The position numbers and the translations under genes are program-made. The notes under the pieces were generated by a model that was not told the origin of the DNA, ran no database searches, and saw nothing but the letters and a program-made list of their open reading frames with translations. Positions 27,198-43,781 of a stretch of 64,000 nucleotides of DNA are shown in pieces. Within the stretch, counting starts at the first letter, position 1. Every line of letters starts with the position of its first letter. Origin of the DNA: Promicromonospora soli (GTDB taxonomy: Bacteria; Actinomycetota; Actinomycetes; Actinomycetales; Cellulomonadaceae); assembly GCF_014653785.1 (NCBI RefSeq), contig NZ_BNAS01000001.1:977898-1041897 (forward strand), given 5' to 3'.

Positions 27198-28691
27198 GTG
27201 ACTTCTTACCTCCAGACAGCCCCGCGTCCCTCCGAAGAGGTCGACGTCGCGCTGATCGGCGGAGGGATCATGAGCGCCACGCTCGGCGCGCTGCTCACGA
27301 TCCTCGAGCCGACCTGGCGTATCGGAATCTACGAGCGCCTGGACGAGGTGGCGCTCGAGTCGTCGAACCCGTGGAACAACGCGGGTACCGGCCACGCCGC
27401 GCTCTGCGAGCTGAACTACACGCCGGAGCGCAAGGACGGCTCCGTGGACATCTCCAAGGCGGTGACGATCAACGAGCAGTTCCACACCTCCCGCGAGTTC
27501 TGGAGCCACCTGCTCACCGCCGGCCTGATGGAGGGCACCGACTTCATCAACGTCACGCCGCACATGACGTTCGTGCGCGGCGCGGACAACGTGGACTTCC
27601 TGCAGCGCCGCTACGAGGCGCTGCGCGTGCACCCGCTGTTCAGCGACATGGAGTTCAGCTCCGACCCCGCGGTCATCGGGCAGTGGGCCCCGCTGATGAC
27701 CCTGGACCGCGACGCCGACGAGCCGATCGCCGCCACGCGCGCCGCCGCGGGCACCGACGTCGACTTCGGCTCGCTCACCAAGAAGCTGGTCGACTTCGCC
27801 ACCGCTCACAACACCGAGCTGCACGTGAACCACGAGGTCCGCGGCCTCAAGAAGCTGCGTGACGGCCGGTGGCGCCTCACGCTGCACGACCGCTCCTGGA
27901 ACGCCGGGACCCGCCGCCGCGCCGTCACCGCGAAGTTCGTCTTCGTCGGCGCGGGTGGCGGAGCGCTGCCCCTGCTGCAGGCTTCGGGCATCAAGGAGGC
28001 GCGCGGTTACGGCGGCTTCCCGATCTCGGGCGAGTTCCTGCGCACGTCGGAGCCGGCCGTCGTCGCACAGCACCACGCCAAGGTGTACGGCAAGGCCGAC
28101 GTCGGCGCCCCGCCGATGTCCGTGCCCCACCTGGACACGCGCATCGTCGACGGCAAGCGCTACCTGATGTTCGGCCCGTACGCCGGGTTCAGCCCCAAGT
28201 ACCTCAAGAAGGGCAAGTACCTGGGTCTGATCACGTCGCTGCGCCTGCACAACGTGTTCTCGATGCTGGGTGCGGGCGTGAAGAACCTCGACCTCACCAG
28301 CTACCTGGTGGGCCAGGTCGCGGCCGCCCCGGAGACCAAGTTCCACGAGCTGCAGCGGTTCATGCCGACCGCCCAGCCCGGGGACTGGGAGAGGATCACC
28401 GCCGGCCAGCGTGTCCAGGTGATCAAGTGGGTCAAGGGCAAGGGTGGCGTGCTGGAGTTCGGCACCGAGGTCGTAGCGGCCAAGGACGGCACCATCGCCG
28501 GCCTGCTGGGCGCGTCCCCGGGTGCCTCGACCGCCGTCGCGGCCATGACCGGCCTGCTGGAGCGCTGCTTCCCCGCCAAGTACGACGAGTGGAAGCCGCA
28601 GCTCACCTCGATGATGCCGAGCCTCGGCGGCGTGGACTACGACACCGCGGAGCTCGCGAAGGACGCCGACCGGGTGACTGCGGGAGCCTGA
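27198..28691 (+). CDS. mqo: Malate:quinone oxidoreductase
   Basis: 497-residue peripheral membrane FAD enzyme that oxidises malate to oxaloacetate and passes electrons to the quinone pool, as part of the TCA cycle and respiratory chain. N-terminal FAD fold VDVALIGGGIMSATLGALL; diagnostic blocks ESSNPWNNAGTGHAALCELN, VGAGGGALPLLQASGI, GYGGFPISGEFL and LGASPGASTAV. Full length for the family. GTG start. A very long hairpin begins 2 bp after the stop. Confidence 0.97.
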   Translation: MTSYLQTAPRPSEEVDVALIGGGIMSATLGALLTILEPTWRIGIYERLDEVALESSNPWNNAGTGHAALCELNYTPERKDGSVDISKAVTINEQFHTSREFWSHLLTAGLMEGTDFINVTPHMTFVRGADNVDFLQRRYEALRVHPLFSDMEFSSDPAVIGQWAPLMTLDRDADEPIAATRAAAGTDVDFGSLTKKLVDFATAHNTELHVNHEVRGLKKLRDGRWRLTLHDRSWNAGTRRRAVTAKFVFVGAGGGALPLLQASGIKEARGYGGFPISGEFLRTSEPAVVAQHHAKVYGKADVGAPPMSVPHLDTRIVDGKRYLMFGPYAGFSPKYLKKGKYLGLITSLRLHNVFSMLGAGVKNLDLTSYLVGQVAAAPETKFHELQRFMPTAQPGDWERITAGQRVQVIKWVKGKGGVLEFGTEVVAAKDGTIAGLLGASPGASTAVAAMTGLLERCFPAKYDEWKPQLTSMMPSLGGVDYDTAELAKDADRVTAGA

Positions 28692-28790: not shown

Positions 28791-30206
28791 TCAGCCGCCG
28801 AGCACCGTCAGGCGCTCGGCCCAGCGGTCGAGCAGTGCGTCGACCGTCTCCACCGCGACGTCGGTGCGGGGCATGCGCGCCCGCACCGCGACACCCTCGT
28901 TGGTGCGCGACACCCAGAGCTGCAGGTCGTCGGCCCGAGTGGCGGCCGACACGTGGTGCGCCCGCCGTCCGGCCGCCGCCAAGTGGCCAGGGAGCCGCCG
29001 GTAGTCCAGGTACGAGACCTGGAAGATGTCCACCCGCGGGAACCGCAGCGGCCGCGGCAGCGACTCCACCACCTGTTCGAGCGGCACTGCCGCCAGCTCC
29101 CGCGCGGCCCGGAGGGCCTTGCCCGCGGCGGCGAGCGTCGTGTCCGTGGCGGCTCCGACGCCGACGCCGACAGGGGCGCCCACCTCGATCCGCAGCGGCA
29201 CCGTGGTGGTGTGCCAGCCGATCGTCCGGCGGGCGGTGGCGTCGGCGCGGGTGTGCACCGGCAGGAGCGTGTCCAGGACGGCGGGTCCGCCGAGGTCGGC
29301 GACGGCGCCCGCGAGACTGGCCAGCACGGCGGCCGACGTCGACGCGCCGGCCGCACCCGCGCGCGCGGCGACGGCGTCGGCGGTGGGGGCGTCGGCCAGG
29401 GAGCGCAGCACCGTGCGCTGCGGCACCCGCTCGCCGTCGGGCACGCCGAGCGGCAGCGGGAAGGTGGGCAGCGCCCACCCCCGGTCGCGGAGAAAGCCGT
29501 GCCAGGTCGCGAGCCGAGGGTCGTTGGCGCCGACCAGCTCCGGCCGCGCGGCCGCGGCCGGGTTCAGGGCCTCCACCACCAGAGCGTCCGCGGGCCCATC
29601 CGGCGAGACGGCGGGCACGCCCGCCCCGGCCCGCGCGCCGTAGAGCGCGGCCAGCTCGTCGACGACGACGGTGGTGGACCAGGCGTCGGTGTGCAGGTGA
29701 TCCATGCCGAACACGATCGTCGACCGGTCCGGGCGGCTGATCGCGGCGGGCAGGAACGCCGGGTAACCGAAGGGCGCGCACCGCCGGCTGAGCTCGGCCA
29801 CCAGGTGCGCGCGGGTGGCCTCGACCGTGCTGGTGACGGGGCCGTCGTTGCGCTGCCACACGAGGGTGCCGGGCTCGTGCCGCACCAGGCCGACGCCACC
29901 GGCTGCACCGCCGTCGACGCCGGACGACCCGCCGGGCAGGCGGACCGCCTCGACCGACAGCCCGGCGTGCCGGGCAACCAGATCCCGGAAGGCGGACTCC
30001 AGCGCGCCGAGGTCGACGGGGCCGTCGACGTCGAACGCGGCGGTGATCCACACGCTCGGCTCGCCCGCGTCCGCCCCGAGCAGGTGGTTGCGCTGGTTGT
30101 ACGTCAGCGGTGCCGGGGTCGGCACCCGCCCCGCGCCCGGCATGACGTCCCAGGTGACCACTCGGCCGGGCGCCGGTTCCCAGAGGTCAGCCGAGACGAC
30201 CCGCAC
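28791..30206 (-). CDS. Stand-alone condensation/PapA-like acyltransferase 1
   Basis: 471-residue protein of the condensation (chloramphenicol acetyltransferase-like) superfamily. The active-site motif is DHLHTDAW (H170 to D174), equivalent to HHxxxDG; the Gly is replaced by Ala. A C-terminal block VDIFQVSYLDYRRLPGHL matches the equivalent segments in the two upstream genes (YLDLRRFPG, YVDTRF). N-terminal region LTYNQRNHLL. It overlaps the upstream acyltransferase by 20 bp (30187-30206), so the three minus-strand paralogues are one operon. There are no adenylation or carrier domains nearby, so it probably transfers an acyl group from CoA or ACP to a polyol or sugar. Acceptor unknown. Confidence 0.78.
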   Translation of the reverse strand: MRVVSADLWEPAPGRVVTWDVMPGAGRVPTPAPLTYNQRNHLLGADAGEPSVWITAAFDVDGPVDLGALESAFRDLVARHAGLSVEAVRLPGGSSGVDGGAAGGVGLVRHEPGTLVWQRNDGPVTSTVEATRAHLVAELSRRCAPFGYPAFLPAAISRPDRSTIVFGMDHLHTDAWSTTVVVDELAALYGARAGAGVPAVSPDGPADALVVEALNPAAAARPELVGANDPRLATWHGFLRDRGWALPTFPLPLGVPDGERVPQRTVLRSLADAPTADAVAARAGAAGASTSAAVLASLAGAVADLGGPAVLDTLLPVHTRADATARRTIGWHTTTVPLRIEVGAPVGVGVGAATDTTLAAAGKALRAARELAAVPLEQVVESLPRPLRFPRVDIFQVSYLDYRRLPGHLAAAGRRAHHVSAATRADDLQLWVSRTNEGVAVRARMPRTDVAVETVDALLDRWAERLTVLGG

Positions 30207-31722
30207 CGGTCGCCTCCAGGCGCTCGTCCGGCGCCGCCTCCGTGCCGACCGTCACGGGCACGGCGACCGCCGCCTCGAACGTCGCCGTCAGCTCGGCGAT
30301 GTAGCGGTCCACGGCGGCCTGCGCCGCCGGAGCGTCCGGGGTCTGCGTGACGACGTACAGCCGCTCGTGGTCGCGGTTCACCCAGAGCGAGGCGTTCGCG
30401 GTGCGGCCCTCTCCCGTGAAGTGCAGGCCGCGGTCGTAGGCCGGGCGTCCGACGCCGGGGAACCGCCGCAGGTCCAGGTAGCTGATCAGCTGCGGGCTGC
30501 CGAGGGAGGCCGGGTCGAGGACGCCGCCCGCCAGCATGACGCCGAGCGCGGCGTGCACCGGAACCCTTGCCACCTTCCGGGCCTGCCGGAACGCCGCGTC
30601 CGCGGCCGGCAAGACATCGGTGAACGACGCCGGGACACCGCCGTCGGCCACGGGGAACGTCACCGGCGCGAAGTTGCACAGCCAGCCCTGCGAGGTCTCG
30701 AACCCCGGTCCCCGCGAGCCGACCACGGTGACGCCGAACCAGTCGGCGGCTCCCGTCAGCCGGGCGTCCGTGAGCGCGATCCCGGCGAACACCGCGCCCG
30801 TGAAGCGTACGCCGCGGGCGGCGGCCAGCTCGTCCAGGCGGGCGAGGCCGGCGGCGTCGAGCAGGGTCGCGGAGCGGATCCGCACGGGTGCGGTCTCGCC
30901 GGGCGCCAGGCCGAGGTCCAGCGCGAAGCTGGGCAGCCGGCCGTCGTGCGCGGTCACGGCTTCGGACCAGGCCTGGATCTCGGGGGCGTCCGGCGGGGTC
31001 GCGGCGGCGAGCGCGTGCTCAGCCCGCGCGTGGACGAGGAACGACCCGGCGGTCTCCGGGGCGGGCTCGGGTCCCGACAGGCTCGACCAACGAGGCTCGC
31101 CCGCCCCGCGGACGTCGAGCTCCTCCGCGTACAGCTCCTCGATCTCGCTGAGCACCATCAGCTGCGACGCCCCGTCGGTGAACGCGTGGTCGCAGCCCCA
31201 GAACAGGCTGAACCCCTCGTCGTGGACGACGGCCCCGAGCGCGAACGGCGCCCACGTGTCGGGGCGGCACGCGGCGTCGAAGGTCGCGTTGAGGTGCGTG
31301 GTCACCCACTCGCCCCACGGGAGGCCCGGCCCCGGCGAGAGCGCGGGAACCTCCACGGCCGCGAAGCCGACGGCGTCCGCGGCCACCAGGTGCCGCACGG
31401 GCTCGCCGCCGTCGGTGCAGGCATCGACGTCGAACCACGTGCGCAGGCCCTCGTGCCGGCGCACCAGCCGGGTCAACGCCCGTGCAAGGGCCGCCCCGTC
31501 GAACGCCCCGTCGAGGTGGGTCGCGGTGCCGGTCCAGGCCCTGTGCCGGCCGCCGGACGCGCGGCGCGCCGCATAGGCGCGCAGGTGGTCGCCCTGCAGG
31601 AACGACGGCGGTCCCGGGTCCACCGGGGCCGACGCCGCAGCGGCGAGCGCCTCCGTCGTGGGCCGTACGTGCAGCACCTGTCCGGGCCGCGGGGCCCAGG
31701 TGCCCATGGCGCCGAGAATCAT
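30187..31722 (-). CDS. Stand-alone condensation/PapA-like acyltransferase 2
   Basis: 511-residue condensation-superfamily enzyme with an intact DHAFTDG motif (H179, D183, G184). N-terminal acyl-site region FLQGDHLRAYAARRASGG, RALTRLVRRHEGLRTWF (typical first-lobe helix), C-terminal PQLISYLDLRRFPGVGRPAYD and NASLWVNRDHERLYVVTQ. The ATG at 31722 overlaps the stop of acyltransferase 3 as ATGA, giving strict coupling. It resembles mycobacterial PapA-type acyltransferases that esterify trehalose or polyketide diols. Membership is from motif and fold pattern; substrate is unknown. Confidence 0.8.
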   Translation of the reverse strand: MILGAMGTWAPRPGQVLHVRPTTEALAAAASAPVDPGPPSFLQGDHLRAYAARRASGGRHRAWTGTATHLDGAFDGAALARALTRLVRRHEGLRTWFDVDACTDGGEPVRHLVAADAVGFAAVEVPALSPGPGLPWGEWVTTHLNATFDAACRPDTWAPFALGAVVHDEGFSLFWGCDHAFTDGASQLMVLSEIEELYAEELDVRGAGEPRWSSLSGPEPAPETAGSFLVHARAEHALAAATPPDAPEIQAWSEAVTAHDGRLPSFALDLGLAPGETAPVRIRSATLLDAAGLARLDELAAARGVRFTGAVFAGIALTDARLTGAADWFGVTVVGSRGPGFETSQGWLCNFAPVTFPVADGGVPASFTDVLPAADAAFRQARKVARVPVHAALGVMLAGGVLDPASLGSPQLISYLDLRRFPGVGRPAYDRGLHFTGEGRTANASLWVNRDHERLYVVTQTPDAPAAQAAVDRYIAELTATFEAAVAVPVTVGTEAAPDERLEATGAGRLG

Positions 31723-33164
31723 GCGACAGCCTCTCTCATTTCTGCGGACCCGAAGGCTCGGAAGTAGCCGCGCAGCTCGTCGACCAGCGCGTCCATCGCG
31801 GCGTGCGCCTCGGGTGTGTCCGGGTAGCGGGCGGAGACATTGAGGCCCTCGTGCGTGCGCAGGAACCAGAGGTAGAGCTCGTCGGTGCCATACGCCGGGC
31901 TGCGCAGGGTCCGGGCCGCCCAGGAGGACCAGCGCTCGGCGCCCGGTACGAATCGGGTGTCGACGTAGGACACGGCGAAGTGCGGGCTGTCGGTGATGCC
32001 GCCCAGCTCCGCGATGCGCGCGAACGAGTACCGCACCAGGTTCTTGCCGGCGGAGACCGCCGCGTGCACGCGTTCGACGGCGGCGGTCAGGGCGTGAGAG
32101 TCGATCACCTGGGCCGGCCCGTCCTGCCCGGCCTCCACCTCGCGCAGCACCGGGTCCACGCCGTCGAGGTCGAGGTCCACCGGGCACAGGCCCACGTACC
32201 AGCCGACGGCGGCGGCGTGCTGCGGCGCGTACCTGGTGTGCATCGGCAGCACGAACCGCAGCCGGTCGAGCCCTTGCACCCGGCGCGCGGCGTGCGCGAA
32301 CGCGGCCAGCACCCCGGACTGGGCGGATGCGCCGCGGGCCCGGCTGCGGGCGCTCAGGTCGTCGGTCTGGTCGACGGTGGCGAGCCACGACGACCGGGAG
32401 GCCTGCGGGCGGGCCGCCTCGGCGGCGTCGGCGGCGGGGTGCGTGACGGTGCCGTAGCGAGGGAAGGTGGCGCCGGGCCCGAGGAAGTCGAGCCAGCGGC
32501 GCACGGGCTCGCCGTCGGCGGCGAGCGTCATGGCGAGCTTGCGGTCCTCGGCGGAGAAGTCCACGTGTGAGCCGACCTCCAGCTCGCGCAGCTCGGCGTC
32601 GGGCGCTCCCCGGCGGGCGGCGTCGTACAGCGAGACGATCTCCTCGAACCACAGGAGCTGGGAGTAGGCGTCCATGACCGAGTGGTCGGCGCCGAACGCG
32701 AGCACGAACCAGTCGGCGTCCGGGCCTGGCGCCGGCACGACGCTCGCCATCACGCAGTGTGGCCAGGCGGTGGGCGAGACGTCGGCGAGCAGGCTGGGCA
32801 GCAGGGCGGCGACCTGGCCGGCGGTGAGGTCGCCGACCACCAGGTCCCGGACGGCGACGGCCTCGGCCGGGGCCGTCACCCGCCGCCAGCCCGCCCCTGC
32901 GTCGCGCGTGACGGTGGTGCGCAGCACCTCGTGGCGGCTCACCCACGCGTGGATCGCGCGGCGCAGCGGCTCCGGCTCGTACGGGCCGGGCACGCGCAGC
33001 ACGGAACCGATCCAGGACCCCGGCTCGGAGTCGCGCAGGTGGGCCTCGTGCCCAGGAGACAGGTCTCGCGGGTCCTGCTGCCAGCGTCCGGCGTCGGCCC
33101 GCGGCGTCCAGGACGTCACGGTTCCGGCGGGCAGGTCGTAGGCCGAGAGCTCGGTGTATTCCAT
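31719..33164 (-). CDS. Stand-alone condensation/PapA-like acyltransferase 3 (first gene of operon)
   Basis: 481-residue paralogue with the motif DHSVMDA (H161, D165; Ala for the usual Gly). N-terminal LSPGHEAHLRD and RRAIHAWVSRHEVLRTTV match the condensation first lobe; C-terminal FAVSYVDTRFVPGAERW and DELYLWFLRTHEGLNVSARY match the second. ATG 33164 follows the promoter at 33241-33270 by about 70 bp. It leads the three-gene minus-strand operon and diverges from acyltransferase 4. The three paralogues are strongly diverged from one another, which suggests different acyl donors or acceptor positions on one product. Confidence 0.8.
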   Translation of the reverse strand: MEYTELSAYDLPAGTVTSWTPRADAGRWQQDPRDLSPGHEAHLRDSEPGSWIGSVLRVPGPYEPEPLRRAIHAWVSRHEVLRTTVTRDAGAGWRRVTAPAEAVAVRDLVVGDLTAGQVAALLPSLLADVSPTAWPHCVMASVVPAPGPDADWFVLAFGADHSVMDAYSQLLWFEEIVSLYDAARRGAPDAELRELEVGSHVDFSAEDRKLAMTLAADGEPVRRWLDFLGPGATFPRYGTVTHPAADAAEAARPQASRSSWLATVDQTDDLSARSRARGASAQSGVLAAFAHAARRVQGLDRLRFVLPMHTRYAPQHAAAVGWYVGLCPVDLDLDGVDPVLREVEAGQDGPAQVIDSHALTAAVERVHAAVSAGKNLVRYSFARIAELGGITDSPHFAVSYVDTRFVPGAERWSSWAARTLRSPAYGTDELYLWFLRTHEGLNVSARYPDTPEAHAAMDALVDELRGYFRAFGSAEMREAVA

Positions 33165-33240
33165 GCGGGCGGGTCCCTAGCTCGTTGTGTGGGCACGGCC
33201 AGCACGACGTCGGACGAGTTCCGCGTTCCCCTTGCCGACA

Positions 33241-33270
33241 TTTATACCGGATTCACCGGGTGAAAGTCAG
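33241..33270 (-). promoter_or_regulatory. Promoter with embedded palindromic operator for the acyltransferase operon
   Basis: On the minus strand, CTGACT (33270-33265) and TATAAA (33246-33241) are spaced by 18 bp. The perfect palindrome TTCACCCGGTGAA (33252-33264) fills most of the spacer. A repressor bound there would block RNA polymerase. The site is also placed to affect the divergent gene at 33352. Confidence 0.6.
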
Positions 33271-33311
33271 TCCCCCGCGGATGCCCGGTATGGTCTGGCA
33301 CTTGAAGACGA

Positions 33312-33330
33312 CGGTCCCCGCAAGGGACCG
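33312..33330 (+). other. Leader hairpin upstream of acyltransferase 4
   Basis: CGGTCCC (33312-33318) and GGGACCG (33324-33330) form a 7-bp stem with a CGCAA loop, 21 bp before the GTG start. It may modulate translation or RNA stability. Confidence 0.4.
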
Positions 33331-33351
33331 GAACCGAACGGGGAGACGAGC

Positions 33352-34881
33352 GTGCCGAACCCGCCAGCCGCACTGCGCCTGCAGTTCGCAGACGACATGT
33401 TCCTGCGCCGGCACGACGGCGACGCGAGCCCGGCGGTGAACCAGGTGCTGTGGCGCCTCGACGGGCCGTACGACGCCGACCGCCTGCGCGACCTGGCCGA
33501 ACGCATCGCCGACGGATCGCTGCACCGGCGGGTGGTGCGGACGCGCGTGCCCGGGGCGCGGCACCGGTGGGCGCCCGCGGGGACCCTGCCGGTCCTGGAC
33601 CTCCAGACGGCGGCCGTGGCCGTAGACCGGATCGGGACGTGGGCGCAGGCACAGGCCGACGTGCCGCTCGATCCCGCCCGCGGCCGCTCCTGGCGGCTCG
33701 CCGCGGCGGACATCGCGGGGGGCGCTGACGGCGCGGGCGCGGTGGTCGGCGGCATCGTCTCGCTCACCTGCGCGCATGCGGTGGCCGACGGCGCCGCGCT
33801 GATCGACGCCGTCGTGCGCGCCTCGACGCATGCCGACCCGATAGTCGTGCCGGCGCCCGAGCGCGGGCCGAGGGCGCTGCTCGCGGACGCCGCCGACGCC
33901 GCGGGCCAGGCCGCCGCCGTCGCGCGCTGGGCGCAGGCCAAGGCGCGGGAGACCGCCCGCGAGCGGCTGTCGGCCGAGCGCGCTCCTGCGGTCGAACCTG
34001 CACCGGCGGTCGAACCTGCACCGGCGGTCGAACCTGCACCGGCGGTCGAACACGCTCCAGTGGTCGAGCCCTCTCCGGTGGTCGAGCCCTCTCCGGTGGT
34101 CGAGCCCTCTCCGGTGGTCGAGCCCTCTCCGGTGGTCGAGCCTGTCGAGACCCAGGTTTCGACAGGCTCAACCGGCGAGGCGGACTCAGCCACGGACGAC
34201 GCCGGCTGGCGCGCCCCCGTGCTGCACGTCGAGCTCCCGTCCGACCAGGTGGCCAGAGCCGCGGCCGAGCACGGCGGAACACAGAACACCTGGTTCGTGG
34301 CGTTCCTCGCCCGCCTGGTGCACGCCACCGGCCGGTTCCCGGGCGAGCCCGTCCCCGTCGCGCTGCCCGTGTCCACGCGCGGCCCCGACGACCCGCGCGC
34401 GAACTCGACCAAGATCGCCCGGGTCACGATCCCGGCCGACGTGCTCGCCAAGCGCGACCTCGGCTGGGTCCGGGCAGCCGCCAAGGAGGCATACGCCGCC
34501 GTCGGGGAGGCCGCGCAGGGCGTTGCCCCGGTGCCGCTCGAACTGGTGCAGATGCTGCCCGACACTGTCGTGAGCCGGCTGCCGCAGCCGCCCGTCGCGG
34601 CCGCCCTGGCGTCCAACCTGGGCAAGCCGCCCGAGGGGTACACGCAGGCGCCGGGCGGCTCGGTGCGCGCGGTCGCCACCTTGTCGCACTACCAGGGAGC
34701 CACCGCCGCCGAGCTGCGCGCCGCCGGCGGCGGGCTCGTCGCGTTCTGCACCACCGTGGGCCCGACGACGATGCTCAGCGTCGCCGCCCTCGACCCCGAC
34801 CGGGTGGCCGACGCCGAGACGCTGCGCGCCCTCGTGCTTGCCGAGACGGCCGCCTGGTACCTCCCCGCGGTGCCGTGGTGA
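33352..34881 (+). CDS. WS/DGAT-like stand-alone acyltransferase 4 with repeat-encoded linker
   Basis: 509-residue protein of the condensation superfamily, closer to wax ester synthase/diacylglycerol acyltransferase in pattern: DMFLRRHDG start, VNQVLWRLDGPYD, catalytic AHAVADG (H142, D146, G147), then VPVALPVSTRGPDDPRANST and ALASNLGKPP. Residues about 212-275 are a Pro/Glu/Val-rich spacer made of nine 6-residue units (APAVEP, then SPVVEP) followed by VETQVSTGSTG; it joins the two lobes and is encoded by repeat DNA. The GTG start has GGGAG upstream. It is homologous to acyltransferase 5 at 36413, which lacks the spacer. Confidence 0.78.
   Translation: MPNPPAALRLQFADDMFLRRHDGDASPAVNQVLWRLDGPYDADRLRDLAERIADGSLHRRVVRTRVPGARHRWAPAGTLPVLDLQTAAVAVDRIGTWAQAQADVPLDPARGRSWRLAAADIAGGADGAGAVVGGIVSLTCAHAVADGAALIDAVVRASTHADPIVVPAPERGPRALLADAADAAGQAAAVARWAQAKARETARERLSAERAPAVEPAPAVEPAPAVEPAPAVEHAPVVEPSPVVEPSPVVEPSPVVEPSPVVEPVETQVSTGSTGEADSATDDAGWRAPVLHVELPSDQVARAAAEHGGTQNTWFVAFLARLVHATGRFPGEPVPVALPVSTRGPDDPRANSTKIARVTIPADVLAKRDLGWVRAAAKEAYAAVGEAAQGVAPVPLELVQMLPDTVVSRLPQPPVAAALASNLGKPPEGYTQAPGGSVRAVATLSHYQGATAAELRAAGGGLVAFCTTVGPTTMLSVAALDPDRVADAETLRALVLAETAAWYLPAVPW
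33988..34149. repeat. Nine tandem 18-bp units inside acyltransferase 4
   Basis: Units 1-4 are variants of GCGGTCGAACCTGCACCG and units 5-9 variants of GTGGTCGAGCCCTCTCCG, head to tail without gaps and in frame. The last unit merges into the inverted repeat at 34134-34173. Likely slippage expansion of the GGTCGAGCC core of that repeat. Confidence 0.92.
34134..34173. repeat. Interspersed inverted repeat (GGTCGAGCCTGTCGAGACC type), complete copy
   Basis: Left arm GGTCGAGCCTGTCGAGACC (34134-34152) and right arm GGTTTCGACAGGCTCAACC (34155-34173) pair at 17 of 19 positions with a 2-base loop. It lies in frame within acyltransferase 4. Related sequences occur at 4501, 16039, 41156-41272, 44006, 54138 and 55247. 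Confidence 0.85.
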
Positions 34882-35039
34882 CAGGCGGCTCGGGCGCCTT
34901 CGGCTCAGGCTCCGTTCTTTGGCGGCCGAGCCTGCGCTGCACCTCCGGCTCAGGCTCCGCTTGTTGTCGCCAGAGCCTGCGGTTCCGCTTCGGGCGAGTG
35001 CCTCGTTCCTCGGCCCTCACCCTGCGCTACACCTCCGGC
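34882..35039. repeat. Imperfect direct repeats in the acyltransferase 4/glycosyltransferase gap
   Basis: 158 bp between convergent stops. GCCTGCGCTGCACCTCCGGC near 34931 is repeated as CCCTGCGCTACACCTCCGGC near 35022, and GGCTCAGGCTCCG occurs at about 34900 and 34950. No gene is seen. It probably serves as a termination region. Confidence 0.5.
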
Positions 35040-36344
35040 TCAGCCGCCGCCGGTCCCCTCGATCGCGTCGGCCGCCGCCGCGACCGCCCGGTCGGCGGGC
35101 ACCAGGCGCGAGCCGAGCTCGGCGGCGCGGGCCGCGGTGGCGTCGTCGAGCACCTCGGCCAGCGCCCCGGCGAGCACACCCGGCCGCGTGAGCGTGCTCG
35201 CGCGGCGCGCGACCCCGACCCCGGCGCCGCGCAGCAGCTCGCCCCACATGGGCTGGTCGGCGGAGTACCAGCCGACGACGGCGGGCAGGCCCGCCCGCAG
35301 CACCGCCCCCGTGGTCCCGGCCCCTCCGTGGTGGACGGCGGCGCGGCAGCGGGGCAGCACGGCAGCGTGGTCGACGGCGCCCACGACGCGCACCCGCTTC
35401 TCGTCCGGTCCGGCGTCCGCGCCCCCCGCGCCGCCGGCCGCCGAGAAGTCGTTCCACCCGGCGCTGACCAGAGCCCGCACCCCGAGGTCGGCGCAGGCGG
35501 CGTCGACGGCGGCGAGCAGCGCGGGCGGGTCCGCCACGGGCATCGAGCCGAACCCGACGTAGACGGGTGGGTCGCCGGCGTCCAGCCACGCTTCGAGCCC
35601 GGCGCCGGTACCCGAGCCGGCCTCCCCGAGGCGAGCCCGGGCGTCGTCGTCCAGCGCGAGGAACCCGGTCAGCGGGCGGCGCGGGCCCCATTCGTCAGCG
35701 AGGCCCGGTACGAGCGCGGGGTCGTAGGCCTGGATCTCGACCGCCCCGGCGTCGCGCAGCCGCGTGGGCAGGTGCACGCGGGTGGCGCCCAGGCCGAGCT
35801 CGCCGCGCTGGACGTTCTCCGCCCGGCGGGTCAGGCCCCAGCGCACGCGCTCCCCCAGCGCCCAGACCGCCCGCGTGGCGCCGGGCCCGCGCACGCCGCT
35901 CACGGGCGACACCGTACGGTTGGCCCGCACCGGGCAGTAGTGCAGCGCGGCCATCCGGAGACCGCGCCGCTCGGCCACCGCGGCGGCCACCTCCTGCCCG
36001 AGCAGGCCGGTCACCACGGTGTCGGCGCCGCCGACGTCGTCCAGCAGCGCCAGCAGGCCGGTACGCAGCTCGTCCCAGCCGGCCGCCGCGACGGCGCGCA
36101 GCGCGCGCACCCGGCGCACCGGATGGGCCGATCGCATATCGCGCCGCACCAGGTCGGAGCCGAGCAGGGCCGCGGAGTCGATGCCGAGCGGCACCGGGTC
36201 CAGGCCCAGCCGCTCGGCCAGCGGCACCAGGTTCGGCGCGACGCCGGTCACCACCTCGTGCCCGCGCCGGCGCAGCTCCAGCCCCACCGCGAGGGCCGGC
36301 TGGACATCTCCTCGACTGCCCACCAGGGCCAGAACATGACGCAC
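35040..36344 (-). CDS. Glycosyltransferase, GT1/UGT-like (macrolide/glycolipid type)
   Basis: 434-residue GT-B fold enzyme of the MGT/UGT superfamily. N-terminal MRHVLALVGSRGDVQPALAV matches antibiotic and glycopeptidolipid glycosyltransferases (GSRGDVQP). C-terminal donor-site block AAVHHGGAGTTGAVLRAGLP, then VVGWYSADQPMWGELL, is complete. It is cytoplasmic. It lies tail-to-tail with acyltransferase 4 and head-to-head with acyltransferase 5, so it probably glycosylates the acceptor that these enzymes acylate. Mycobacterial glycolipid loci show a similar pairing of GT1 enzymes and acyltransferases. Confidence 0.9.
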   Translation of the reverse strand: MRHVLALVGSRGDVQPALAVGLELRRRGHEVVTGVAPNLVPLAERLGLDPVPLGIDSAALLGSDLVRRDMRSAHPVRRVRALRAVAAAGWDELRTGLLALLDDVGGADTVVTGLLGQEVAAAVAERRGLRMAALHYCPVRANRTVSPVSGVRGPGATRAVWALGERVRWGLTRRAENVQRGELGLGATRVHLPTRLRDAGAVEIQAYDPALVPGLADEWGPRRPLTGFLALDDDARARLGEAGSGTGAGLEAWLDAGDPPVYVGFGSMPVADPPALLAAVDAACADLGVRALVSAGWNDFSAAGGAGGADAGPDEKRVRVVGAVDHAAVLPRCRAAVHHGGAGTTGAVLRAGLPAVVGWYSADQPMWGELLRGAGVGVARRASTLTRPGVLAGALAEVLDDATAARAAELGSRLVPADRAVAAAADAIEGTGGG

Positions 36345-36412
36345 GCGCGCACTCTACTTACCCGCCACCCACCCCCAGGCCACCCACCCGCCTGCCCCGC
36401 ACCGGAGGCCCC

Positions 36413-37843
36413 GTGACCAGCCCAGCGACCAACCCCGCGGCGACCAACCGCCTCACCTACGACGACGACCTCTTCCTGCGCACCCGCCGCGTGCTCGGCG
36501 TCGCCGTCGTCAACCAGACCGTCTGGCGCCTGCCCGCTCCGCTCGACGGCGACGCCGTGCACGCCCTGCACCGCGGCCTCGCGAACGGCCCCCTCCAGCG
36601 GGTGGTGCGGCCCAGCCGCCTCCCCGGCGCCCGCGCCCGGTGGTCGGCCTCCACCGTGTCGCTCGACCCGGTGGTCGAGACCGCACCGGTGCCCGACGAC
36701 GCCGTCCTCGCCTGGGCGAACCGGCAGGCCCAGGTGCGCCTGGATCCCGAGAACGGCCCCACCTGGGCCCTCGCGGCGGCGCCGACGGCGGCCGGCGGGA
36801 GCCTGCTCAGCTACGTGACGTCGCACGTCGTGGCCGACGGCGGGATGCACATGGGCGCGCTCCAGGCCGCCGTCTCCGCCGCGGCCTCCGGGACCTCTGC
36901 CGACGGGGCCACCGCGGCCGACGCGGGCGGCCCGCCGTCCGAGGTCCAGCGCCTGCCCAAGGAGGGCGAGCGCATCCGCACCGGCCTGGTCGCGGACCTG
37001 CGTGACGCCACAGGCCAGGCGTGGGCGGCGGTCGGCGGCGTGCGTCAGGCGGTCCGGCAGGGTCCGGTGCCGCCGCTCATGGCGCAGCAGTCGGCGGACC
37101 GGCCCAGGCCCGAACCACGCCCCGACGACGCCGAGCTCGCCGACCCGCCGATCGTCGTGGTGGACACGGATGCCAACACCTGGCACCGCGCGGCCCACGC
37201 CGCCGGCGGCACGGCGAACTCCCTGCTCATCGCGGTGTGCACGGAGATCCTGCTCGCCGCCGGCGCGGCGACCGCCGGCATGCCGGTGCGCGTGTCGGTG
37301 CCAGTCAGCCTGCGGGGCAAGGGCGACCTGCGGTCGAACGCCACGTCGGGGGTCTCCATCGCCGTCGACACCACCGTGACGCCCGCGCCCGAGCGCGCAG
37401 GCGTGGTGGCCGACATGGCCCAGATCCGGGCAAGCGCCGCAGCCGAGTTCAGGGGCCTGACCTCCGGCACCCGGGTGGACACCCTGGGCCCGCTGAAGCC
37501 GCTCATGCAGATGGTGCCCGATGCCGTCGCCAAGCGCGCCGCGCGCGACGCCACCGCACCGCTGTGCCTGGCCTCCAACCTGGGCCGGCTGCCCGCGGCG
37601 TTCGCTGCGCCGCTCGGCACTCCGGCCGCCAGCGTGCTCATGCGCGGCATCACCCAGGGACTCACCCGCGGGCGGCTGCGCCAGATGCGGGGCGGCCTGG
37701 ACTCCTGGTGGTCCGAGCACGACGGCGTCGCCACCCTCGCGGTGCTCGGGCTGGACGACGAGCGGCTCGGCGAGCCCGCTCAGGTGCGCGCGGCGATCGA
37801 GAGCGTGTTCGCCCGGCACGGCCTGCCGGTCCGCTTCTGGTAA
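36413..37843 (+). CDS. WS/DGAT-like stand-alone acyltransferase 5
   Basis: 476-residue homologue of acyltransferase 4: LTYDDDLFLRTRRVLGVAVV, catalytic SHVVADGG (H138, D142, G143), VRVSVPVSLRGKGDLRSNAT, LCLASNLGRLPAAFAAPLGT. The VSLRGKGDLRSNATSGVSI block resembles the wax ester synthase C-terminal lobe. GTG start at 36413 with GGAGG 5 bp upstream; starts further upstream lack similarity. It diverges from the glycosyltransferase (68 bp gap) and converges on the ketopantoate-reductase-like gene. Function: O-acyl transfer, inferred. Confidence 0.78.
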   Translation: MTSPATNPAATNRLTYDDDLFLRTRRVLGVAVVNQTVWRLPAPLDGDAVHALHRGLANGPLQRVVRPSRLPGARARWSASTVSLDPVVETAPVPDDAVLAWANRQAQVRLDPENGPTWALAAAPTAAGGSLLSYVTSHVVADGGMHMGALQAAVSAAASGTSADGATAADAGGPPSEVQRLPKEGERIRTGLVADLRDATGQAWAAVGGVRQAVRQGPVPPLMAQQSADRPRPEPRPDDAELADPPIVVVDTDANTWHRAAHAAGGTANSLLIAVCTEILLAAGAATAGMPVRVSVPVSLRGKGDLRSNATSGVSIAVDTTVTPAPERAGVVADMAQIRASAAAEFRGLTSGTRVDTLGPLKPLMQMVPDAVAKRAARDATAPLCLASNLGRLPAAFAAPLGTPAASVLMRGITQGLTRGRLRQMRGGLDSWWSEHDGVATLAVLGLDDERLGEPAQVRAAIESVFARHGLPVRFW

Positions 37844-37855
37844 CCCGGCGCCCGG

Positions 37856-38749
37856 TCAGGCTTTGACCGACGCCGCCAGGCGGTCCACCGTCGACGTCAG
37901 CACGGGCATCACTACCCCGTGCCGCTGACCTGCCCGCAGGATCGCGCCGCCGATCGCGTCGAGCTCGCCCGGCCGCCCCGCCGACAGGTCGGCCTCCAGG
38001 GAGCCGACGGTCTGGGGCGGCAGGGCCGCGAGCAGCTCGCGCAGCTCGTCGCCCGTCGACGGCACGCCCTCGGCCGACGCGACAGCGGCGATCTCGCGCA
38101 GCAGCCCGGCGGTGAGCTCTGGATCGCGGTCCAGCGCCTCCCCGATACCGACCTTCCAGATCGAGGTCAGCAGTGACAGGCCGGCGAGGAACCGCAGCTT
38201 CTTCCAGAGCACCTCTGCCTCCGTCCCGCCGGTGGTCAGCTGGGCGCCCGTGTCGCGCAGGGCGGCGGTCAGGCCGAGGTCCTCCGCCGCGTCCGGCACC
38301 ACGATCGTGAGCAGGTTGAACGAGTGGGTGACCGTCGCGGGGCGCGGGCCGCCCACCGGAGTGCGGCGTGTCTGGCCGGCAACCGTCGCCCCGTAGACAC
38401 GCGCCTCCGGCGCCGCCGCACGGAGCCGGTCCATGTGCTCCACGCCGTTGAGCAGGGCTATCACCTCGGTCGGCGCCGCGTCGCGCAGCAGGCCCGCCGC
38501 CGCGGCGACGCCGTCCGCCTTGACCGCCACCAGGACCCGTGCGCCCCGCGGCACCGTCGTGGAGGCGGGCAGGGGCGCGTGCCAGGCGCCGAAGAGGTCG
38601 GTCACGACGTCGAGCCCGTGCTCGTTGATGTGGGAGGCGGTCGGCTCGCGCGCGACCACCGTGACGTCATGCCCCGCGCGCTGCATCAGGGCGGCCATGA
38701 GGCCGCCGATCGCGCCCGGGCCGATCACGGCGATCGGCGCACCGGTCAT
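37856..38749 (-). CDS. Ketopantoate reductase (ApbA/PanE) family oxidoreductase
   Basis: 297-residue NADPH-dependent reductase. Rossmann motif APIAVIGPGAIGGLMAAL, mid-domain VLVAVKADG, LLNGVEHMDRL, and the catalytic Lys region EVLWKKLRFLAGLSLLTSI. The C-terminal helical domain ends with GELDAIGGAILRAGQRHGV, where the family motif is typically E(L/I)D.(L)NG. It could be PanE for pantothenate synthesis or a paralogue making a 2-hydroxy acid for the neighbouring acyltransferase locus; sequence alone does not decide. Confidence 0.85.
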   Translation of the reverse strand: MTGAPIAVIGPGAIGGLMAALMQRAGHDVTVVAREPTASHINEHGLDVVTDLFGAWHAPLPASTTVPRGARVLVAVKADGVAAAAGLLRDAAPTEVIALLNGVEHMDRLRAAAPEARVYGATVAGQTRRTPVGGPRPATVTHSFNLLTIVVPDAAEDLGLTAALRDTGAQLTTGGTEAEVLWKKLRFLAGLSLLTSIWKVGIGEALDRDPELTAGLLREIAAVASAEGVPSTGDELRELLAALPPQTVGSLEADLSAGRPGELDAIGGAILRAGQRHGVVMPVLTSTVDRLAASVKA

Positions 38750-38792: not shown

Positions 38793-39221
38793 TCATGCGG
38801 CCATCCGCACGGGAGGGTGCCCTTTCGGCTGGGGTACGACGCTGGGTGTGCCCGGCTTGCGACGTCGGGTCGTCACGAGAACTCCGACCGACGCCGCCGC
38901 GAACGACAGGGCCCCGAACCCGGTGGACCAGCCGTCCAGGTCGACCGTCAGGGCGAAGACGACGATCGCCGCGACCGGCGGCACCATCCCGACGAGGACC
39001 GACACGCGAGGCAGACCGAGGCCGCGCACCGTCCGCGCCACGGCCCAGCCGACGAGGGCCCAGGTGAGCAGCGCGATCGCCGCACCACCGAAGGAGGCGA
39101 AGAGCTCACCGGCGTTGTGCGCGCCCGTCGGGGGCCCGAAGTAGAAGAGGTCAGTGGTCGCCACAAGCACCAGGAACCCCACGATCGCGACCACTGGGGT
39201 CACGAGAGAGCGTCTCAACAC
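38793..39221 (-). CDS. Four-helix membrane protein of unknown function
   Basis: 142-residue protein with four predicted membrane helices (about 8-23, 42-62, 72-90, 98-117) and a basic, Pro-rich C-terminal tail. I do not recognise the family. The GTG start has a strong GGAGGCGGAG site. A TATAAA at 39274-39269 and CTGACA at 39299-39294 on the minus strand form a possible promoter with a long 19-bp spacer. It lies 43 bp upstream of the reductase gene and may be co-transcribed with it. Confidence 0.65.
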   Translation of the reverse strand: MLRRSLVTPVVAIVGFLVLVATTDLFYFGPPTGAHNAGELFASFGGAAIALLTWALVGWAVARTVRGLGLPRVSVLVGMVPPVAAIVVFALTVDLDGWSTGFGALSFAAASVGVLVTTRRRKPGTPSVVPQPKGHPPVRMAA

Positions 39222-42503: not shown

Positions 42504-43781
42504 CTATGCCGAGTCCACCGGCACCGGGAAGGTGACCGGGAGGCTCACCGGCTGGCGGATCCACAGCGTCTGTTCCCAGGCGACGTCGGTGGCGGGGATC
42601 CGCAGGACGACGTCGAGCCGGCGCAGGATGGTCTCGACGGCGATCCGGGCGATCACGCGCGCCGTGCGGGGCGCCGGGCAGGCGTGCGGTCCGGTGCCGA
42701 ACGACACGTGGGCGCGGCTGCCGAGGTGGTCCCAGGGGTCACCGGTGTCCATCCGCGGGTCGGTGTTCGCGGCGTGGACGGCCAGGATGAGCGGGTCGCC
42801 GGCCGCGATGAGCTTGTCGTCCAGCACGATGTCCTGGCGAGCGAAGCGGGGCATGGTGTGGATCGTCGGGGTGGAGCGCCACAGCACCTCGTCCATCGCG
42901 TTGTCCAGGTCGATGCGGCCGCCGTGCAGCCGCCCCGAGAACCGCGAGTCAGTGAGGGTCAGCAGCAGGGTCTGCGCCACCCACGCCGTCAGCGTGAGGT
43001 TGCCCGCGTAGGCCACCGTGAGCAGGGTGTGGGTCACCTCGATGTCCTCGCGCATGTTCGGGTGCGCGACCAGCGAGCTCGCGAGGTCCCGCTTCGGGAG
43101 CGCGCGGCGGTTCGCCACGAGGTCGCCGAGCAACCGGTCGGCCTCCGCCACGGCGGGAGCCGCGTCGGTCCCGCCCGCGGCCATCCGGCGGGTCAGGTCG
43201 AACAGGCGCTGGCCGTCCTCCGGGCCGAACCCGATCATGTCGGCGACGACGAGGAAGGGGATCACCGACGCGTACTCGAGCATCAGGTCCGCGCGGCCGC
43301 GGTCCTCGAACCGGTCGATGAGCAAGTTGCAGAGGGACCGCGCCTTGCCCGCGGTGATGCCTTCGGAGAGCTGCTCGAACGCGTCGTCGAGCGGCTCGCG
43401 CAGGCGCTGCCGCAGCGCGCCGTCGGTGTGGTTGGCGGACAGGCGCTGGTGCGAGGTGAAGGCCGGGCGCAGGCCCGACGTCGTCGGCAGGCCGCCGCGC
43501 GCGTGCCCGTTCCACGTCTGTGGGTTGGTGGAGAAGATGTGCTCGTTGCGCATGACGTCGTAGACGAGCCGCTGCCCCATGACCAGCCAGGCCGGCACAC
43601 CGGGCTCCAGCTCGACGGGGGCAACCTCGCCCCACTCCTGCTCGAGCTCGTCGTAGAACTCGCGCGGTTCGGGCAGTGCCGACGCCCGCACCAGCGGCTT
43701 CAGGTTGGAAAGGCCGCTGAGCCGCAGCGGCCTGGTGCCACGCCAGGGACGCTCCTGGGCGTTCTGCAGGTCATCGAGCAC
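42504..43781 (-). CDS. Cytochrome P450, conservon (CYP157/154)-like
   Basis: 425-residue P450. The heme ligand is C368 in FGTGPHACPAP, and the K-helix ExxR is present (EVLWR, 298-302). The I-helix reads AYAGNLTLT (258-265) and lacks the usual acid-Thr pair of AGxDT/AGxET, so oxygen activation may be unusual. WNGHARGGLPTTSG and the heme motif ending CPAP recall the P450s of Streptomyces conservon (cvn) operons, but no cvnA-D genes are adjacent. GTG start. Redox partners are not nearby. Divergent from an IclR-family regulator. Confidence 0.85.
   Translation of the reverse strand: MLDDLQNAQERPWRGTRPLRLSGLSNLKPLVRASALPEPREFYDELEQEWGEVAPVELEPGVPAWLVMGQRLVYDVMRNEHIFSTNPQTWNGHARGGLPTTSGLRPAFTSHQRLSANHTDGALRQRLREPLDDAFEQLSEGITAGKARSLCNLLIDRFEDRGRADLMLEYASVIPFLVVADMIGFGPEDGQRLFDLTRRMAAGGTDAAPAVAEADRLLGDLVANRRALPKRDLASSLVAHPNMREDIEVTHTLLTVAYAGNLTLTAWVAQTLLLTLTDSRFSGRLHGGRIDLDNAMDEVLWRSTPTIHTMPRFARQDIVLDDKLIAAGDPLILAVHAANTDPRMDTGDPWDHLGSRAHVSFGTGPHACPAPRTARVIARIAVETILRRLDVVLRIPATDVAWEQTLWIRQPVSLPVTFPVPVDSA

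Follow-up and report, generated by a model that had tools for sequence, protein, structure and literature searches.

The 64,000-nucleotide stretch analysed here, the window, comes from the actinomycete Promicromonospora soli (contig NZ_BNAS01000001.1, positions 977,898 to 1,041,897 of the forward strand). Between mqo and the gene of a small membrane protein it holds a block of seven genes, five of which encode proteins with an HxxxD motif that are predicted to be acyltransferases. The genes of the block, its two flanks and a repeat within it are as follows.

28791..30206, minus strand: C3, predicted PapA-type stand-alone acyltransferase, 471 amino acids (aa), H170-D174
30187..31722, minus strand: C2, predicted PapA-type stand-alone acyltransferase, 511 aa, H179-D183
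31719..33164, minus strand: C1, predicted PapA-type stand-alone acyltransferase, 481 aa, H161-D165
33352..34881, plus strand: W1, acyltransferase-like, from a family without a Pfam match, 509 aa, H142-D146-G147
35040..36344, minus strand: GT1-type glycosyltransferase (GT), optional part, 434 aa, HHGGAGTT
36413..37843, plus strand: W2, acyltransferase-like, same family as W1, 476 aa, H138-D142-G143
37856..38749, minus strand: PanE-like reductase (ApbA over the cut-off), within the inserted block though not constantly present in it
27198..28691, plus strand: mqo, left flank, outside the block (Mqo profile, E value 6e-214)
38793..39221, minus strand: small membrane protein gene, right flank, outside the block, 142 aa
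33975..34142, plus strand: 18-bp tandem repeat encoding the W1 linker, 9.3 copies

C1, C2 and C3 overlap head to tail, the C1 stop and the C2 start sharing the sequence ATGA and C2 and C3 overlapping by 20 bp. W1 and W2 enclose the GT gene, which lies on the opposite strand, and the PanE-like gene comes after them. The G+C content of the block (0.74–0.77) is higher than that of most of the window. An earlier note on this DNA had described five HxxxD proteins, three of them encoded by an overlapping operon; all five genes and both overlaps were found, and the motif histidines stand as it had written them, with the residue numbers of C2, W1 and W2 counted from the starts listed above. In comparisons with two congeners, P. 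panici and P. sukumoe, all five acyltransferase genes are under purifying selection: the ratio of nonsynonymous to synonymous differences (pN/pS) was 0.17–0.41 for these genes and GT, and 0.16–0.21 for mqo.

The condensation-domain profile PF00668 scored over the Pfam cut-off in C1, C2 (33.5 bits) and C3 (36.7 bits). When PDB sequences were searched, PapA2 was the top match of C1 (E value 1e-9, vs 5e-7 for a type II C enzyme) and of C3 (9e-20, vs 8e-9 for Txo1), and it was the sole match of C2 at E values up to 0.1 (6e-35, residues 6–482). Fold searches, which covered C1 and W2, again placed PapA2 first for C1, 9 Z units over the best nonribosomal peptide synthetase (NRPS) domain among the matches listed. 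The earlier note had assigned these proteins to the PapA/condensation type and had named a best match to NRPS condensation domains as the outcome that would overturn its reading; the best match of known structure is instead PapA2, for all three by sequence and for C1 by structure as well. No NCBIfam model scored over its cut-off in C1–C3 or in W1 and W2; with the PapA5 model, whose cut-off is 396 bits, C1 and C2 scored 21–27 bits, and C3 was not listed. HxxxD was present in all 70 matched C-type rows of 300–1000 aa and in 63 of 64 W-type rows of that length (the exception being a fragment of a frame-split gene), which argues that the motif is not due to chance. These data support the view that C1–C3 are stand-alone PapA-type acyltransferases rather than parts of an NRPS, an activity predicted from sequence and, for C1, from its modelled fold.

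The profile search was extended to the whole genome (5.38 Mb, 20 contigs). The only PF00668 matches were C1, C2 and C3, and the carrier profile PF00550 matched two short frames of 85 and 108 aa. PF00109 gave one full match, adjoining one of these carriers, and four partial matches over 40–60 model positions. Thus, the claim of the earlier note that no NRPS or polyketide synthase (PKS) is present holds for the locus and, within the reach of these three profiles, for the genome, where no NRPS or modular PKS was found; no genome-wide search for adenylation domains was made. Likewise, no PKS or MmpL gene was seen among the genes scanned in and around the block, MmpL not having been searched for genome-wide. 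The carrier and adenylation modules that would partner an NRPS condensation domain were not seen, there being no further PF00668 match and only the two short, lone carriers. An NRPS reading was rejected on the absence of NRPS and modular PKS genes from the genome and on the lead of PapA2 over NRPS domains. As a rival explanation, C1–C3 could still be condensation enzymes of NRPS-like type that work on carrier-bound substrates whose genes lie outside the locus. The PF00668 matches of all three proteins speak for it, but we regard it as highly improbable in a genome with just two lone acyl carrier proteins and for a fold as near to PapA2 as that of C1.

C1 was 86–91% identical over its length to its counterparts in seven named Promicromonospora loci. 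A search of the genus found C1 in 11 of 13 genomes and W2 likewise in 11 of 13, and a scan of named genomes returned 15 loci, nine from Promicromonospora (two being pieces of one genome) and six from Nocardioides. Three C and two W genes were held by 18 of the 40 stretches examined, and another eight of the 40 had W but no stand-alone C gene. The complete loci and the remaining stretches are distributed as follows.

Complete, Promicromonospora (n = 8): the window, L028, L029, L030, L033, L034, L093, L094
Complete, Nocardioides (n = 6): L035–L040
Complete, family f34 (n = 2): L065 and L066, with W1 of L066 split over two frames
Complete, family f11, genus g87 (n = 2): L067, L070
Incomplete by contig ends (n = 4): L031, L032, L041, L042
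Empty sites (n = 2): L091, L092
C-type gene with W genes in other numbers (n = 8): L068, L069, L071, L072, L074, L076, L081, L082

Trees were built from 41 C rows and 47 W rows. Near-identical loci were thinned, which left 10 of the 18 complete loci; rows had to be longer than 300 aa, and the single C row that exceeded 1000 aa was left out; for complete loci outside the trees, gene order and kinship were taken from other comparisons. Long branches are flagged in both trees, and for the C tree there is also a warning of possibly false joins. The C tree shows three clades (100/100, 100/99 and 100/99) that follow the same C1-C2-C3 order in the loci, each containing Promicromonospora, Nocardioides, f34 and the f11 genera g87 and g91. 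In the W tree, Promicromonospora, Nocardioides, f34 and L067 fall into a W1 clade (99/91) and a W2 clade (89/87); L070 lies outside both, its two W genes grouping with each other, and the single W gene of L068 falls in the W2 clade. Promicromonospora and Nocardioides are mutually nearest in the C2, W1 and W2 clades and weakly so in C1 (92/70), their relationship in C3 being unresolved. We conclude that C1–C3 and W1–W2 form one old unit. In a class-wide profile search, which counted weak partial matches too, the W family appeared in 58 of 394 genomes, spread over 18 of 138 genera. Two observations concern individual loci. In L067 (376–12486), the block is flanked by a carboxyltransferase/maf stretch and by sufE, and a fourth C-type match comes after it; acyl-CoA carboxylase genes near the block may hint at the acyl donor. 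Frame-split genes, namely GT of genome G008 (L093, 11411–12735) and W1 of genome G038 (L066, 10160–11496), could reflect decay or sequencing error.

The block is portable, inserted between mqo and the membrane-protein gene. In two genomes of the same genus, G002 and G003, the matches to mqo and to the membrane-protein gene lie 243 and 117 bp apart, and no C, W or GT match was found in this stretch. In these genomes mqo directly adjoins the membrane-protein gene; the block thus comes or goes as a single piece. The earlier note had treated a glycosyltransferase and a PanE-like reductase as interleaved parts of the locus. Both genes are real, and GT carries HHGGAGTT, scores over the cut-off with EryCIII-like_C and Glyco_transf_28 as expected of a GT1 enzyme, and has as PDB relatives GtfB, sterol 3-beta-glucosyltransferase and oleandomycin glycosyltransferase. 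Among the 18 complete loci, 11 have GT as one frame, L093 has it broken into two frames, and six (L028, L035, L037, L038, L065 and L066) lack it. These six genomes have no close copy elsewhere, the best match being 36% identical (P. umidemergens) and none of the other five reaching an E value of 1e-20, so the five acyltransferases there cannot depend on GT for their acceptor. GT was accordingly rejected as an obligatory part. PanE was found in four of the eight Promicromonospora loci with all five acyltransferases (the window, L030, L034 and L094); none was seen in the fetched stretches of the six Nocardioides loci, of which that of L039 ends 1 kb beyond W2. Genomes G002 and G003 have a PanE relative (62%) elsewhere in the genome. 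On this patchy presence, PanE was rejected as a part of the locus. Of the arrangement for which the earlier note had proposed a synteny survey, it is thus the five-acyltransferase unit that recurs in several genera, with GT optional and PanE incidental.

W1 and W2 are paralogues (33% identity) in which no Pfam family scored over its cut-off, PF03007 and PF06974 being absent at E values up to 1. The only protein found by a genome-wide PF03007 search lies far from the block (contig C1 of genome G000, 31654–32274). W2 does have the fold of wax ester synthase/diacylglycerol acyltransferases (WS/DGAT), and both proteins have the HHxxxDG-type motif, of which HxxxDG was invariant in all 22 W1/W2 sequences. 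The description of these proteins as WS/DGAT-like in the earlier note therefore stands for fold and motif, whereas the family that it proposed, PF03007, does not match them. Membership of the Pfam WS/DGAT families was rejected for lack of a PF03007 or PF06974 match. W1 and W2 further differ from PF03007 wax ester synthases in having no WS/DGAT match in NCBIfam either, and W genes often adjoin PapA-type genes: in 20 W neighbourhoods, chosen mainly from strong matches, a stand-alone C-type gene was present in 12, and in L075 a C-type match lay inside one very long frame. W1 carries a repetitive, variable linker that is missing in the Nocardioides W1 rows. A dispersed sequence, GGTCGAGCCTGTCGAGAC (34134–34173), adjoins the 18-bp repeat of W1 and has 11 copies in the window with up to 3 mismatches, vs 1.47 expected.

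We lean, with modest confidence, towards the block being a portable glycolipid acylation module in which C1–C3 acylate a sugar, trehalose being the likeliest, W1 and W2 add chains and GT extends the product. C1, C2 and C3 would move acyl chains from acyl-CoA to the hydroxyls of a small sugar acceptor by means of the HxxxD histidine, each probably taking a different hydroxyl or chain, with trehalose as the most likely acceptor. W1 and W2, distant relatives of the same fold, would probably attach more chains to this lipid intermediate, and GT, where present, may then add a sugar, as in lipooligosaccharides (LOS). GT is missing from a third of the complete loci, which argues that the acceptor cannot need GT; a ready-made sugar such as trehalose fits. 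The analysis shows the genes present, the PapA-type sequences of C1–C3, the folds of C1 and W2, intact catalytic motifs, purifying selection, the joint occurrence of the five genes, the lack of NRPS and modular PKS and the optional nature of GT; from these we infer the acyl-CoA donor, the sugar acceptor, the order of steps, the allotment of one enzyme per position and export. As far as sequence can tell, a multiply acylated sugar lipid would be the most likely product, and this is the best reading of the locus. It retains from the earlier note, which had proposed a multiply acylated glycoside or polyol ester, the acylated sugar lipid and the stand-alone C enzymes; the parts given to GT and PanE are not retained.

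Two alternatives concern the acceptor. The module could make polyol, diol or wax-type esters, with GT only capping some of them; we consider this unlikely, since C1–C3 resemble PapA2, which has a sugar acceptor, and not PapA5, whose model stayed far below its cut-off, and since the single PF03007 protein of the genome lies elsewhere and W1 and W2 have no PF03007 match. GT1 enzymes of this kind attach sugars to hydrophobic aglycones, and with PDB relatives of GT such as those named above, the five enzymes and GT could tailor a hydrophobic secondary metabolite (a carotenoid, terpenoid or similar) made by genes elsewhere into an acylated glycoside. However, 18 loci of several genera keep the three C and two W genes and not always GT, and it is difficult to see where five acyl groups on a single glycosyl unit would go in the six loci where no sugar would be added, which makes this explanation improbable.

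Several points weigh against a sugar-acylating module. Trehalose is put forward as the candidate acceptor from family likeness only, and the block includes neither a trehalose gene nor a nucleotide-sugar gene. Docking placed the acceptor contacts of PapA2 at P171, T307, T324 and S384 (PMC6996325). With these positions mapped by eye from the PDB-search alignments of C2 and C3, S384 is retained in C2, C3 and 7 of 13 C1 rows, the other 6 having T; T324 is retained only in C3, and the remaining two contacts are altered. The absence of a C-type gene from 7 of the 20 W neighbourhoods argues that W genes can work without PapA partners. The top structural match of W2 was AzeD, a dehydratase, which would fit a role of W1 and W2 as dehydratases or helper proteins of the fold instead of acyltransferases; we judge such a role to be quite improbable. 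The block of the window holds no exporter, unlike the Nocardioides loci, L065, L068 and L069. Finally, P. thailandica lacked unidentified lipids in the part of the taxonomic description available (PMC13274763), yet this species carries the full locus (L029). The same portion of that source gives three unidentified glycolipids and iso/anteiso-C15 fatty acids for P. noduliphila, a species outside our locus survey.

Relatives of the block differ in the company they keep. In the five Nocardioides loci for which reading frames were listed (L035–L038 and L040), an alpha/beta hydrolase gene (Hydrolase_4; only the L036 copy was scanned) adjoins W2, and ABC-2 permease genes (one copy scanned) lie beyond C3. 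The hydrolase could be a transesterase of the product. An ABC ATPase is encoded within the block of L065, L068 and L069; its C-terminal match is DrrA-like and clears the cut-off only in L069. Three loci belong to genus g22, which probably represents mycobacteria: in L081, PKS-PapA-W-W share one strand, with GT and a Sap-like protein on the opposite strand; L082 has the order PKS-PapA-W-W-W-GT-MMPL; and L071 combines PapA with W genes and MMPL. Those g22 PapA genes that were tested fall in the C2 clade (99/96), and these gene sets are the ingredients of polyacylated glycolipid loci. Elsewhere in the window, a 425-aa protein (42504–43781) with a P450 match over the Pfam cut-off in its C-terminal part adjoins pntAB-like transhydrogenase genes, and its relatives were matched in 8 Promicromonospora stretches.

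Polyacylated trehaloses and LOS have been studied mostly in mycobacteria. The C proteins share with mycobacterial PapA1, PapA2, PapA3 and PapA4, enzymes of acyltrehaloses, sulfolipid and LOS, the HxxxD motif and, for C1 against PapA2, the whole-length stand-alone C-type fold, and relatives of the block enzymes occur in glycolipid-like loci. In contrast, C1 is only about 20% identical to PapA2, three such genes stand in tandem, the acceptor contacts as mapped differ in part, and PKS and MmpL genes are missing from the window's block. Mycobacterial LOS loci (pks5, papA4, glycosyltransferases, MmpL) likewise combine PapA with glycosyltransferases, and L081 and L082 unite PKS, PapA and GT with W genes; the window's block differs in its three PapA and two W genes, its one optional GT and its lack of PKS and MmpL. 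M. marinum loses its trehalose-based LOS when papA4 is disrupted, according to the portion of the report available (PMC5706390). In the accessible part of a study of Rhodococcus sp. I2R (PMC8396431), four clustered papA genes, named by BLAST, are candidates for new succinic trehalose-type glycolipids; three lie in tandem on contig 9 (1461, 1431 and 1404 bp, spaced 17 and 3 bp apart) and the fourth about 1.5 kb on. This layout is nearly that of L067, but the function is BLAST-proposed and the table given there names no W or GT genes. No description of the five-gene locus was found among the matches listed in the open-access literature. The earlier note, which knew of no described locus with this set, was thus nearly right, the Rhodococcus contig with three tandem papA genes and one more being in print and the LOS pathway needing PapA, as far as these sources could be consulted.

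Collectively, the block and its counterparts in other actinomycetes suggest a probable glycolipid pathway that resembles one known from mycobacteria but lacks the polyketide and export genes usual there. A wider proposal is possible, though we hold it to be doubtful: five co-inherited enzymes, each fixed to one hydroxyl or chain, would produce polyacylated (up to pentaacylated) sugar lipids of a new class in actinomycetes without mycolic acids, and the mycobacterial loci would represent the same older kit with polyketide chains, glycosylation and MmpL export added. With a compact five-enzyme version, free of PKS and carried by soil bacteria, the regiochemistry of PapA enzymes could be resolved one enzyme at a time, the W family, for which no Pfam match was obtained here, would gain a function, and genes could be linked to the unidentified glycolipid spots of actinomycete taxonomy. 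It also bears on the origin of the mycobacterial outer lipids.

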